Shown one piece after another: positions 52,093-56,385 of a stretch of 64,000 bases of DNA. A program made the translations under genes and the position numbers. The DNA is taken from assembly GCF_900119315.1 (NCBI RefSeq), contig NZ_LT827010.1, positions 7,496,001-7,560,000 on the forward strand, in the 5' to 3' direction. Under the pieces are notes generated by a model, which saw nothing but the letters and a program-made list of their open reading frames with translations, was not told the DNA's origin and made no database searches. The first letter of the stretch is position 1. Every line of letters begins with the position of its first letter. The DNA comes from Actinoplanes sp. SE50/110 (GTDB lineage Bacteria; Actinomycetota; Actinomycetes; Mycobacteriales; Micromonosporaceae).

Positions 52093-53562
52093 CTACGCCG
52101 ACGCCGGCTCGCTCAGCGGCAGGCGCACCAGGAACCTGGTGTCGCCCGGCGCGGACTGCAGGGACAGGTCGCCGCCGTGGCCGTTGACCACGATCCGGTA
52201 GGAGATGTCCAGGCCCAGCCCGGTCCCCTCACCGACCGGTTTGGTGGTGAAGAACGGCTCGAAGACCCGTTTCTTGATCTCGTCGGGAATGCCCGGTCCG
52301 GTGTCGCCGACCGCGACGACGACCCGGTCGTCCTCCCGGTAGGTGCGGATGGTGAGGGTGCCCGCCCCGGACATCGCCTGTACCGCGTTGTCGATCAGGT
52401 TGGTCCACACCTGGTTGAGCTCAGCCGGGTGGACCGGCACCTGCGGCAGCGTCCGGTCGTAGTCTTTCACCACCCGGACCCCGTTGCCGATCTTGTGGGC
52501 GAGCATCACCAGGGTGCTGTCGATCCCGGTGTGCACGTCGATCCACTGGTGCGCCGAGCGGTCCACGTGCGAATACTGCTTGGCCGCGTTGACCAGTGAG
52601 GACACCCGGCCGGTGGCGTCCTCGATGTCGCTCATCAGCTGCTCGGTCTCCAACGCGTACCCGATCCAGTGGATCGCCTGGTCGAGCAGCTCGGGTGACT
52701 CGAGCCGGGCCAGGATCTCGGTGAGGCACTCGGCGTCGATGCCACCCTGCGCGAAGACCGGCGCGACGTCCCAGCCGCTGGTCACGCCGTGTTCGTCCAT
52801 CCAGTCGCCGAGCTCGTCCTCCAGGTCGGCGATCTGCATGGCGGTGCGCACGGGCGCCTTCGCGGCCCGCTCGATCACCTCCTCCTGGAGCTCCAGCAGC
52901 GCGGTCAGCCGGTCGGGCGCGACCTTGCCCTTGGCCAGTTTGCCGAGTTTCATCCGCATCGCCGCGACCCGTTCACGGAGCGCTCCGGTGGCCCGGGCGG
53001 CGGCCGCGGCCGGATTGTTCAGCTCGTGCATGAGGCCGGCCGAGAGCGCACCGAGCGCCTGCAGCCGCTGCCGCTCGCCGATCGCCGCCTGTGAGCTGCG
53101 CATCCCCAGCGCCAGGCCTTCCAGCAGGTGGATCGCCATCGGGAACCAGTCGCGCATGAGCCGGCCGAAGTCTCCGGCGGAGAGCACGAAGAACTCGGCG
53201 TCGGAAAGCGCCCGCATCGACGCCATGTACCGCTGGGGCACGCCGTCGTCGCGCAGGTACGCGTTGGTGGCGCCCATGTACACGCCGCGCTGCTCGGTGC
53301 GGCTGGTCTGCACATCGTCCTGCCCGACCCGGCGGGTCAGTGCGATCGTTCCGCTGAGCAGCACGAAGAACTGGTCGGCCGGATCACCCTCGCGCAGCAC
53401 CAGGCCGCCGCCGGCGACCCGCATGGTGCAGCCGTGCTCGGCGATCCAGGCGAGTTGCTCGTCGGTCAGCTTCTCGAACAGGAACAGCGATTTCAGCTCG
53501 GCCGGGGTGAGCCGCCCCGGTTCGCAGGGCTGGAGCTGGATCTCGTCCGCTTCGATGGTCAT
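52093..53562 (-). CDS. Histidine kinase with cyclic-nucleotide-binding sensor domain
   Basis: A 489-residue cytoplasmic kinase. Residues about 22-150 are a cNMP-binding/CRP-like barrel (FEKLTDEQLAWIAEHGCTMR, GGGLVLREGDPADQFFVLLS). The HisKA site is H179 in ALSAGLMHELNNPAAAAARA. A long coiled segment follows, then HATPase_c with NQVWTNLIDNAVQ, VGDTGPGIPDEIKKRVFEPF and GTGLGLDIS. No membrane helices. It lies two bases downstream of the receiver-flavoprotein gene, whose Asp is the obvious phosphate acceptor. Whether it binds cAMP or another ligand is unknown. Confidence 0.92.
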   Translation of the reverse strand: MTIEADEIQLQPCEPGRLTPAELKSLFLFEKLTDEQLAWIAEHGCTMRVAGGGLVLREGDPADQFFVLLSGTIALTRRVGQDDVQTSRTEQRGVYMGATNAYLRDDGVPQRYMASMRALSDAEFFVLSAGDFGRLMRDWFPMAIHLLEGLALGMRSSQAAIGERQRLQALGALSAGLMHELNNPAAAAARATGALRERVAAMRMKLGKLAKGKVAPDRLTALLELQEEVIERAAKAPVRTAMQIADLEDELGDWMDEHGVTSGWDVAPVFAQGGIDAECLTEILARLESPELLDQAIHWIGYALETEQLMSDIEDATGRVSSLVNAAKQYSHVDRSAHQWIDVHTGIDSTLVMLAHKIGNGVRVVKDYDRTLPQVPVHPAELNQVWTNLIDNAVQAMSGAGTLTIRTYREDDRVVVAVGDTGPGIPDEIKKRVFEPFFTTKPVGEGTGLGLDISYRIVVNGHGGDLSLQSAPGDTRFLVRLPLSEPASA

Positions 53563-53564
53563 GG

Positions 53565-55223
53565 CTACTGCGCCTCCAGGTAACGATGGACCAGCGCGAC
53601 GGCCATCGCGCCCTCACCGACCGCCGAGGCCACCCGTTTGATCGAGTTGGCCCGGACGTCGCCGGCGGCGAAGATGCCGGGAACACTGCTCTCCAGATAG
53701 AACGGATCGCGGTCGCGATCCCATCCCCGCGGACGCGTGCCGTTCGCCAGCAGATCCGAGCCGGTGCGCACGAAGCCTTTCCCGTCGCGTTCCACCGCGT
53801 CGCCGAGCCAGTCGGTGCGGGGCTCCGCCCCGATGAAGACGAACAGGTAGCCGCACTCGACGGTGGCTTTCGTCCCGCCCTTGCTGTCGCAGATGGTGAT
53901 CGCCTGCAGGTGCCCGTCGCCCTGCGCGCCGATCACCTCGCACCTGGTCCGCACCTCGATGTTGGACACCTGGGCCAGCTGCTGGATGAGGTAATACGAC
54001 ATCGACGATTCGAGGGAGTCACCGCGGACCAGCAGGGTGACCTTGCGCGCGTATCTCGCGAAGAAGAGCGCCGCCTGGCCGGCCGAATTGGCTCCGCCGA
54101 CGATGTAGACCTCGCTGCCCGCGCAGGCCGGCCCCTCGGTGGCGGCCGAGCCGTAGAAGACACCGGAGCCGGTCAGCCCGGCCACGCCCTCGGCGACCAG
54201 CGGACGGTAGGAGACACCGGTGGCCAGCAGGATCGCGTGTGCCGACACCTCGCCACCGTCGGCGAAGGTCAGCGTGCGGGCCGAGCCGTCGGTGCGCAAC
54301 CCCACCACCTCGCGGGTGTTGAGCGTCTCGGCGGCGAACTTGTCGGCCTGCCGCCGGGCCCGGTCGGTCAGTTGCGCGCCGGAGATCCCGTCCGGGAAGC
54401 CGAGGTAATTCTCGATCCGGGAGCTCTGGCCGGCCTGGCCGCCGACCGCCTGCCGCTCGATCAGCAGGGTCTTGAGGCCCTCCGACCCGCCGTAGACGGC
54501 GGCGCCCAGTCCGGCCGGCCCGCCGCCCACGATGATCAGGTCGTAGAAGTCGCGGCCCGGGTTGGTGGACAGGCCGGCCGCCTCGGCCACCTGCTGCACG
54601 CTCGGCCGGGGCAGGGCCCGCCCGTCGGCGGTCACCACCAGCGGGATCGACTCGGGGCCGGCGTCCGCGGCCTCCATCAGGCGGCGGCCCTCCGGCTCGT
54701 CGGCGCCGAAGTATTTGTACGGCACCAGGTTGCGGGCCAGGAAGTCGCGGATCTGGAAGGACGGCTCGCTCCACCGGTGCCCGACCAGCCGGATGTCCGG
54801 CATCTCCTGGTCGCCGGTGGCCTGCCAGGCGTCGAGCAGCGCGTCGAGGACCGGATAGAGCTTCTCCTCCGGCGGGTCCCACGGCTTGAGCAGGTAGTGG
54901 TCGACGTCGACCAGGTTGATCGCCTGGATCGCGGCGTCGGTGTCCGCGTACGCCGTGAGCAGGGCACGGCGCGCGTGCGGGAACAGGTCCATCGCCTGCT
55001 CCAGGAACTCGATGCCGTTCATCTGCGGCATCCGGTAGTCGGCGAGCATGACGGCGACCCGACCGCCGCGCAGTTTCAGCTCTTTCAGCACGTCGAGCGC
55101 CTCGGTGGCCGACCCGGCCCGGATCACCCGATACCGGTCGCCGTAGCGTCGGCGCAGGTCGCGGGCGATGGCTCGGGAGACCGAGGGGTCGTCGTCGACG
55201 GTCAGAATCGCGGCTTGGCCCAT
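53565..55223 (-). CDS. Response-regulator receiver fused to thioredoxin-reductase-like flavoprotein
   Basis: A 552-residue fusion. Residues 5-120 are a CheY-like receiver: D10-D12 in LTVDDDPSVSR, phospho-acceptor D62 in MLADYRMPQMNG, T90, K113 in YLLKPWD. Residues about 140-215 are a thioredoxin-fold spacer without CXXC. Residues 226-552 are a TrxR-type FAD/NADPH domain: LIIVGGGPAGLGAAVYGGSE, IVGGANSAGQAALFFARYAR, GIFAAGDVRANSIKRVASAV. The redox CXXC of TrxR is absent (GSAATEGPACAG in that place), so it cannot reduce thioredoxin in the usual way. It sits between NAD kinase-GNAT and the histidine kinase. Confidence 0.92.
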   Translation of the reverse strand: MGQAAILTVDDDPSVSRAIARDLRRRYGDRYRVIRAGSATEALDVLKELKLRGGRVAVMLADYRMPQMNGIEFLEQAMDLFPHARRALLTAYADTDAAIQAINLVDVDHYLLKPWDPPEEKLYPVLDALLDAWQATGDQEMPDIRLVGHRWSEPSFQIRDFLARNLVPYKYFGADEPEGRRLMEAADAGPESIPLVVTADGRALPRPSVQQVAEAAGLSTNPGRDFYDLIIVGGGPAGLGAAVYGGSEGLKTLLIERQAVGGQAGQSSRIENYLGFPDGISGAQLTDRARRQADKFAAETLNTREVVGLRTDGSARTLTFADGGEVSAHAILLATGVSYRPLVAEGVAGLTGSGVFYGSAATEGPACAGSEVYIVGGANSAGQAALFFARYARKVTLLVRGDSLESSMSYYLIQQLAQVSNIEVRTRCEVIGAQGDGHLQAITICDSKGGTKATVECGYLFVFIGAEPRTDWLGDAVERDGKGFVRTGSDLLANGTRPRGWDRDRDPFYLESSVPGIFAAGDVRANSIKRVASAVGEGAMAVALVHRYLEAQ

Positions 55224-55236
55224 TGTCTGATCTTCC

Positions 55237-56385
55237 TCAGCTCAGCTCGGTCAACTCAGGGTGACGTTCGACGTATCCGGCCACGAACGGGCAGGTGGCG
55301 GTGACCGGCACGGACCGGGACCGGGCGTCGGCGAGCGCCGCCGAGGCCAGCCGGCCGGCCAGCCCGCGACCGGAGAAGGCCTGGTCGACCTCGGTGTGCA
55401 GCAGCTCGACGCGGTCGCCGTGGCGGCGGTAGTGCAGCATGCCGGCCACCTCGCCGCCGACGAGCACCTCATACCGCTGGCGCTCGAAGCTGTCGACCAC
55501 CACCGCGTCACCGGTGTCCCAGTCGCCGGCCTGGGCGCTGCCCTCGACCCGGAGCTTGCGGCGCGCCCGCTCGTAGAACGAGGTCTCGCCGAACCGGATC
55601 ACCTGCGCGGCGCCCGGCACGGGTTCGATCTCCACGGCGGCGCCGGGCTCGGCGTACCCCTCGATGATCCCGTCGACCTCGATCGCCAGCCGGCCGCTGG
55701 TGGGCAGCACGTCGAGGCTGAGGTGTTCGGAGGTGTCCAGGACCAGCGAGCGGTTGAACGACGAGTGTGCGGCGGCGGCGCTGACGATCAGGCCCTCGAC
55801 GTTCGGTGAGACGATCGGGCCGCCGGCCGAGAAGCTGTACGCCGTCGAGCCGGTCGGGGTGGAGACCAGCACCGCGTCGGCCGCGTAGTTGACGAACCGC
55901 TTGCCCTCGACCCGGATGCCGACCGCGGCCAACCCGTGCCCGGGCACCCGGACCAGGGCGATGTCGTTGAACGCGGTGACCCGCCGCCCGTCGGGCAGCA
56001 CGGTGCGCACCGCGGTGCGGCTCTCCACCCGGAACGAGTGGTCGTCGATCGAGGAGAGCGCGTCCTTGAGGTCGGGCAGGTCGACCTCGGCGAGGAACCC
56101 GAGCCGTCCCACGTTCACCCCGAGCACCGGCGTCTTGCGGCCCTCGACCAGACGCATGCTGCGCAGCATGGTGCCGTCGCCGCCGAGGCTGACGAGCAGG
56201 CCGGCCCGCTCGACCATCTCCTCGGCGGAGACCGCGACCGCGCTGCAGTCGATCCGGTTGATCTCGTCGGGCAGGCCGAGCACGGTCACCCCGCGGGCGG
56301 CTGCCCAGCTCACGATGGTGTCGACCGCCGACCCGCAGTCCCGGCGCGGGTGCAGCACCAGGCCGACCACCTTGACCATGCCCAT
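55237..56385 (-). CDS. nadK: NAD kinase fused to a YjdJ-like GNAT domain
   Basis: A 382-residue fusion. Residues about 5-280 are a complete NAD kinase: LVSLGGDGTMLRSMRLV (G68-G71), GVNVGRLGFLAEV, FNDIALVRV, and NYAADAVLVSTPTGSTAYSF with SAGGPIVSPN. It should make NADP from NAD and ATP. Residues about 296-380 are a short GNAT of the COG2388/YjdJ type: YEVLVGGEVAGMLHYRRHGD, LLHTEVDQAFSGRGLAGRLA, CPFVAGYVERHPEL. The join (residues 280-296, Gly/Asp-rich) is in frame with no internal start. ATG 56385 follows GAGGGG. It leads the operon with the receiver-flavoprotein (13 bp) and kinase. Confidence 0.93.
   Translation of the reverse strand: MGMVKVVGLVLHPRRDCGSAVDTIVSWAAARGVTVLGLPDEINRIDCSAVAVSAEEMVERAGLLVSLGGDGTMLRSMRLVEGRKTPVLGVNVGRLGFLAEVDLPDLKDALSSIDDHSFRVESRTAVRTVLPDGRRVTAFNDIALVRVPGHGLAAVGIRVEGKRFVNYAADAVLVSTPTGSTAYSFSAGGPIVSPNVEGLIVSAAAAHSSFNRSLVLDTSEHLSLDVLPTSGRLAIEVDGIIEGYAEPGAAVEIEPVPGAAQVIRFGETSFYERARRKLRVEGSAQAGDWDTGDAVVVDSFERQRYEVLVGGEVAGMLHYRRHGDRVELLHTEVDQAFSGRGLAGRLASAALADARSRSVPVTATCPFVAGYVERHPELTELS

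Follow-up and report, generated by a model that had tools for sequence, protein, structure and literature searches.

The histidine kinase and the receiver-flavoprotein encoded side by side in the window (the whole analysed stretch of Actinoplanes sp. SE50/110 DNA, 64,000 nucleotides long) are almost certainly cognate. They probably form a cytosolic two-component phosphorelay that gates a flavoprotein of non-disulfide type, the NAD kinase-GNAT gene of the same locus being a lineage add-on. All three genes lie on the minus strand of a genome that consists of a single contig of 9.24 Mb. In the order of reading they are the NAD kinase-GNAT fusion gene (55237..56385, 382 aa), the gene for a receiver/thioredoxin-fold/TrxR-like flavoprotein (53565..55223, 552 aa; identified from its ORF, Pfam and predicted fold), and the gene for a soluble histidine kinase with an N-terminal cNMP-fold domain (52093..53562, 489 aa; identified from its ORF, Pfam and a model). 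The earlier note on this DNA had described three same-strand genes separated by 13 and 2 bp; ORF coordinates and Pfam domains bore this out, the first gap occupying 55224..55236. A GAGG-like sequence precedes the start of the second gene and a GGAGG-like sequence that of the third. The full-length receiver-flavoprotein and the full-length histidine kinase are each present as a single copy in the source genome, and the closest named protein to the former is from Actinoplanes cyaneus (96% identity).

When the middle protein was analysed with Pfam, Response_reg and Pyr_redox_2 were found. The receiver domain (54870..55211, minus strand, residues 5-118) has the complete residue set D/D, D, T, K in the form of D10, D11, D62, T90, and K113. 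The presumed phosphoryl acceptor D62 (codon at 55038..55040, minus strand) was kept in 24/24 and 32/33 aligned sequences, with the window's protein counted each time. In the third protein, the Pfam matches were cNMP_binding (PF00027, E 9.3e-10; 53152..53418, minus strand, residues 49-137) and HATPase_c (52111..52428, minus strand, residues 379-484). H179 (codon at 53026..53028, minus strand), which lies in the motif HELNNP and is the presumed autophosphorylation site, was kept in 21/21 and 30/30 aligned kinases, again with the window's protein included; N392 and the G-box residues were invariant, and the H-box, N-box, and G-boxes were all present. The kinase model (pLDDT 85.4) showed a cNMP barrel, a helix at residues 140-213 carrying H179, an insertion at 216-287, a helix at 290-335, and the ATPase domain, and HK853 complexes headed its Foldseek list. 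The insertion (52702..52917, minus strand), predicted to be helical and to lie between two dimerisation helices, is probably the reason why no HisKA model matched in the Pfam search. The canonical phosphate-binding cassette of cyclic-nucleotide domains is GE...R.AS/T. A self-made and strict pattern for this cassette did not match the window's kinase and was present in 4/97 kinases, suggesting that the kinase ligand is probably other than an ordinary cyclic nucleotide. The label 'cNMP-domain' given to this kinase in the earlier note thus holds for the fold but not for the canonical cassette.

We queried a phylum set of 246 genomes with the two proteins of the window. At E <= 1e-60, and counting forms that lack the receiver, the flavoprotein occurred in 62/246 genomes; the kinase, at E <= 1e-40, occurred in 34/246. 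In 34/34 of the kinase genomes, the kinase gene lay on the same strand within 52 bp of a receiver-flavoprotein gene, a count from which receiver-less rows were excluded and five full-length flavoprotein rows (G036, G094:C23, G082, G206:963277, and G198) were also omitted. These five had no kinase match on their contigs; three of them were later scored as broken receivers (L174-L176), and G036 and G094:C23 were outside that scoring. Altogether, 50 kinase matches were obtained in the phylum, 36 directly adjacent, 10 as further tandem copies in the cluster, and four elsewhere. In the family set of 130 genomes, the kinase was adjacent downstream of the receiver-flavoprotein in 87/88 kinase genomes, with gaps of -19 to 147 bp, and in the one exception (G341) the receiver gene is broken into two frames and directly followed by the kinase gene. 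These counts led us to reject chance adjacency. Among the named-genome loci, which are the best 80 of 132 confirmed relatives, the pair was found in eight phyla; the pair-bearing loci belonged to Actinomycetota, Cyanobacteria, Caballeronia, Bacteroidota, and Acidobacteria, and to Gemmatimonadetes, Verrucomicrobia, and Sphaerobacter MAGs, and the kinase gene was upstream of the receiver gene in the Bacteroidota and Gemmatimonadetes loci of this set. The proposal that H179 and D62 make a natural pair is supported: both residues are as stated and near-invariant, and their genes are nearly always adjacent. An all-against-all BLAST for further conserved neighbours gave no clear fourth partner, the output being swamped by shadow reading frames.

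We also compared the integrity of the receiver with the presence of the kinase. An intact receiver was defined by D10/D11/D62/T90/K113 and scored in 163 proteins, with overlapping genes allowed. The kinase was adjacent in 74/77 cases with an intact receiver, in 1/41 with a broken receiver (truncated where its contig ends), and in 0/45 receiver-less proteins, in a sample that is non-random in that some of the genome-search loci were fetched for the presence or absence of a kinase beside the gene. In 79 named loci (from the best 80 of 132), which were chosen irrespective of gene context, the corresponding figures were 37/39, 0/6, and 0/34. The intact receivers without a kinase within 300 bp were L207, L209 (kinase 2.6 kb away), and L271, whose contig ends 542 bp away. 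T90 entered the definition after a first version, in which the phylum set contained 34 intact receivers with a kinase and seven without, and 0/17 broken receivers with one; six of the seven kinase-less receivers that were intact under the first definition had V or I at the T90 position. The first version had also scored the family loci L109 and L111 as kinase-less, since overlapping genes were skipped, and the kinase is present there. In a FastTree phylogeny built from the core of the flavoprotein, changes of receiver state are few, leaving three supported independent pairs (six on all branches). About two of the three were in the expected direction, none was opposite, and about one showed no difference (sign test, p 0.5). 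The receiver-kinase association is thus consistent with expectation and is not significant after allowing for descent.

The NAD kinase-GNAT gene showed a different distribution. Its product matched NAD_kinase, NAD_kinase_C, and Acetyltransf_CG in Pfam, the last being the GNAT domain (55246..55476, minus strand, residues 304-380). The closest solved relative is NAD kinase 1u0r, and GGDGT and TPTGSTAY are kept; the protein scores below every NCBIfam equivalog cut-off. It is the second NAD kinase of the genome, the other being at C1:6982991. A relative (E <= 1e-45) was found in 70/130 family genomes, counting one match per genome; the second matches of seven genomes were omitted from this count, and none of these is near a listed receiver gene. 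In 17/66 family genomes having both genes, the NAD kinase lay within 3 kb of the receiver-flavoprotein, always upstream and on the same strand. Matches extended into the GNAT part in the window's genus, in G270, and in two g192 genomes. Outside the family, no NAD kinase near a receiver-flavoprotein was seen among the matches listed, the lists being compared by eye. The adjacency is thus real but restricted to part of the family. The earlier note had presented the three genes as one set and proposed a search for their co-occurrence as a check; when this was done, the kinase and receiver pair proved conserved, but the NAD kinase turned out to be usually scattered by the note's own test, and we rejected the three-gene set as a conserved unit.

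There is, in our view, a somewhat less than even chance that the NAD kinase-GNAT gene owes its place beside the pair to inherited synteny and not to shared function; such a bystander role is compatible with the explanation that we prefer. Consistent with this, 49/66 family genomes with both genes keep the NAD kinase away from the pair, the named loci (best 80 of 132) contain it in a single case of 80 (Paractinoplanes), and in three g190 genomes and G304 (L079-L081, L089) it stands by a zf-UBP gene with no receiver gene nearby. The opposite is suggested by the constant same-strand order of NAD kinase and then receiver gene in all 17 linked genomes (10/10 of the window's genus, G270, and six g210 genomes) and by the finding that zf-UBP, itself a gene linked to the pair, occurs in 13/29 NAD kinase loci. 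The pattern suggests a lineage-specific recruitment of the gene, perhaps by way of zf-UBP.

zf-UBP is the commonest third gene of the pair, though it is near only part of the pairs. It flanked 19/40 fetched pair loci and 25/80 named loci (best 80 of 132) and was missing from the flanks of 21/40 and 55/80, respectively, the 40 fetched loci having been chosen after zf-UBP was seen in some of their genomes. Depending on the lineage, it stands before or after the pair, and it also occurs beside receiver-less relatives. With our own profile, a zf-UBP gene was detected between the NAD kinase-GNAT and flavoprotein genes of five genus genomes (G349, G356, G298, G367, and G340), where the window has its 13-bp gap and these genomes have a space of 320-355 bp; two of the five intergenic zinc-finger genes (97 and 98 aa) were run through Pfam and were assigned to zf-UBP. 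In the g210 genomes, it again lies between the NAD kinase and flavoprotein genes, on the opposite strand in the two that were checked (L141, L142). No zf-UBP gene was found near the locus in the window's clade, including G271, G363, G316, G329, and G270, and the two zf-UBP genes of the 9.24-Mb source genome are elsewhere than at the window's locus. Because zf-UBP also stands between these genes in the g210 genomes, its absence from the locus in the window's clade is probably due to loss, and the window's three genes would then be the remainder of a four-gene cluster. No fusion of zf-UBP and flavoprotein in one open frame was found in L131-L270.

The domain content of the middle protein supports the claim that the output of the receiver is a flavoprotein, and not a DNA-binding domain. 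A glutaredoxin/thioredoxin-fold-like middle domain (54564..54797, minus strand, approximately residues 143-220) has SxxS at the place of CxxC. Residues 144-215 had no Pfam match and were predicted as a thioredoxin-type fold from the order of strands and helices and from the alignment to the Grx domain of L181; the Foldseek/VIA matches fall in the TrxR part. The TrxR/AhpF-like FAD-NAD(P)H domain (53568..54551, minus strand, residues 225-552) has the two-domain FAD/NAD(P)H fold with its FAD motif. CxxC was found in 0/33 and 0/24 aligned sequences of this part, and G358...T362 stands in its place. The earlier note mentions neither the predicted thioredoxin-type fold nor the absence of CxxC. Codons 362-367 (54123..54140, minus strand), at or beside the lost CxxC-Asp, include T362, E363, and C367. 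The residue that takes the position of the catalytic acid, E363, was Glu in 68/77, 33/41, and 40/45 proteins; C367 is a lone cysteine, and T362 and C367 differ in a minority of sequences. Thiol chemistry through C367 may have survived the loss of CxxC. HRRxxxR is the motif for the NADPH 2'-phosphate in low-Mr thioredoxin reductase. The corresponding position reads VRGDSLE, in which R400 is kept in 32/33 sequences and the other basic residues are mostly lost, and the earlier statement that the enzyme needs NADPH finds no support here.

In the mechanism that we favour, the cNMP-fold domain of the kinase would sense a small molecule, which is unlikely to be a standard cyclic nucleotide. Depending on its ligand state, the kinase would autophosphorylate at H179 and then phosphorylate the receiver at D62, and this would most likely alter how the flavin, the thioredoxin-like domain, and NAD(P)H gain access to one another. 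The flavoprotein would be a relative of a Grx-TrxR fusion that has lost both disulfide centres and kept FAD and the pyridine-nucleotide site, which suggests that electrons from NAD(P)H would go to a non-dithiol acceptor other than thioredoxin. The best candidates for its chemistry are E363 and the lone C367, and the best candidate partner is the zf-UBP protein often encoded alongside. The NAD kinase-GNAT gene, apparently added at the level of Micromonosporaceae, may increase the supply of NADP. A more specific version, in which a one-cysteine flavoprotein under the phosphorelay draws on NAD(P)H to adjust the thiol or zinc state of zf-UBP (or, in genomes whose locus has lost this gene, of another carrier) and the Actinoplanes NAD kinase-GNAT couples this to NADP supply, seems to us rather improbable as a whole; it would amount to a redox switch assembled from disulfide-reductase parts that works with no disulfide chemistry.

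The main rival, which we consider unlikely, reverses the flow of information: the flavoprotein would be a non-turnover sensor of redox state or NAD(P)H, and the state of its flavin would control the kinase or drain its phosphoryl groups. The loss of both disulfide centres with retention of the FAD motif and nucleotide site fits such a role, the single C367 would suit a sensor thiol, and in four genomes (L153-L156) three kinases lie behind one receiver protein. However, the flavoprotein core persists in receiver-less relatives, for the most part fused to a cNMP domain and with no kinase beside it, indicating that this core has a function independent of the kinase, and the persistence of Glu at position 363 in the proportions given above also argues against a mere sensor.

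The form given in the earlier note, a phospho-controlled thioredoxin or disulfide reductase supplied with NADPH by the operon's own NAD kinase, is very improbable. Although TrxR and AhpF are the highest-scoring families for the flavoprotein part, and the NAD kinase is adjacent throughout the window's genus, the lack of CxxC in 33/33 and 24/24 aligned sequences, the SxxS of the thioredoxin-fold domain, and the altered HRRxxxR position contradict it, and we rejected the identity of the protein as a disulfide reductase. In addition, no more than 17/66 family genomes that have both place the NAD kinase close to the pair, and the source genome encodes a thioredoxin reductase elsewhere, in which CATC and HRRDSFR are present. 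That the kinase and receiver are adjacent without being partners, the kinase serving another response regulator, is scarcely credible in view of their near-complete adjacency and the tracking of receiver integrity, even if 68 other stretches with kinase homology in the source genome make cross-talk possible.

The core of the system has probably been predicted already, and the earlier suggestion of novelty has to be withdrawn to that extent: Burroughs, Iyer and Aravind (2011, Mol BioSyst 7:2261) reportedly placed bacterial ZF-UBP domains in a novel cyclic nucleotide-dependent redox signalling system. Those of the present loci that combine zf-UBP and cNMP domains with a TrxR-like protein fit such a system; the window has the cNMP domain and the TrxR-like protein but no zf-UBP gene. 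In the literature searched, we found no mention that both disulfide centres are lost, that a single cysteine remains, that receiver and kinase track each other, or that a NAD kinase-GNAT gene has been added. A search of literature titles gave no experimental study of the kinase/receiver-flavoprotein system, and since the search left out most subscription papers, absence is unproven. The accessible part of PMC11354881 contains nothing on zf-UBP, and that of PMC5847659 mentions a Mycobacterium-like combination of REC and thioredoxin reductase. In the part of PMC9953108 that was available, a TrxB-type response-regulator output is given for 1/17 thermophilic cyanobacteria, and the sole cNMP-binding kinase stands in the same table column.

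As a two-component system, the pair is unusual in that it probably has a redox-metabolic enzyme as its output. The Actinoplanes form offers a testable link to NADP supply, and the bacterial zf-UBP protein would gain a role if it is a partner here. Several of the nearest proteins are named 'fused response regulator/thioredoxin-disulfide reductase' by NCBI. This name, like that of response regulators with a TrxB output, implies disulfide reduction, whereas the window's protein is without CxxC; since the conserved residues contradict a thioredoxin reductase, the common annotation is misleading. AhpF has CxxC in both its thioredoxin-fold and TrxR parts. In the window's protein, the predicted secondary structure of residues 144-215 would fit a thioredoxin-fold domain ahead of the TrxR domain, as in AhpF. 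AhpF has no receiver, and the window's protein has CxxC in neither part. The two-domain Grx-TrxR reductase L181 (G302) has the same core (38% identity over residues 141-550) and possesses both redox centres, CPDC and CATC, of which the window's protein has neither. The fusions of a cNMP domain with a TrxR-like protein have the core in common with the window's protein and, in most cases, its E..(3)..C motif as well, and some lie beside zf-UBP; in these, unlike in the window's protein, a cNMP domain replaces the receiver and there is no adjacent kinase. With a receiver in some proteins and a cNMP domain in others, a single core seems to be regulated in two ways.

The Pfam domain search gave no HisKA match in the window kinase. 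The structure model predicts a helical insertion between the kinase's two dimerisation helices (window 52702–52917). A tandem of three cNMP-fold kinases was observed downstream of a single receiver-flavoprotein at L153–L156 (genomes G174, G216, G125, and G200).

The flavoproteins of loci L185–L189 and most of those of L274–L291 have degenerate receivers and no kinase neighbour, and the position of C367, the lone Cys near the lost CxxC of the window protein, is mostly occupied by Met or Leu in them. These proteins are perhaps a constitutive form.

At loci L079–L081 and L089, the NAD kinase adjoins a gene for the zinc-finger protein zf-UBP, and the receiver-flavoprotein is not close by. In the window's genome, two further zf-UBP genes lie away from the three-gene locus, at contig positions 2697949 and 7275706 (G000:C1; L129 and L130). 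In a distant actinobacterial genome, a stretch at L164:4841–5098 matches the GNAT portion of the window's NAD kinase-GNAT and stands alone, adjoining the kinase on the opposite strand. This lone stretch suggests that GNAT may be part of the system independently of NAD kinase.

A two-domain relative encoded at L181:3081–4418, which joins a Grx with CPDC to a TrxR with CATC, perhaps gives a picture of the active ancestor.
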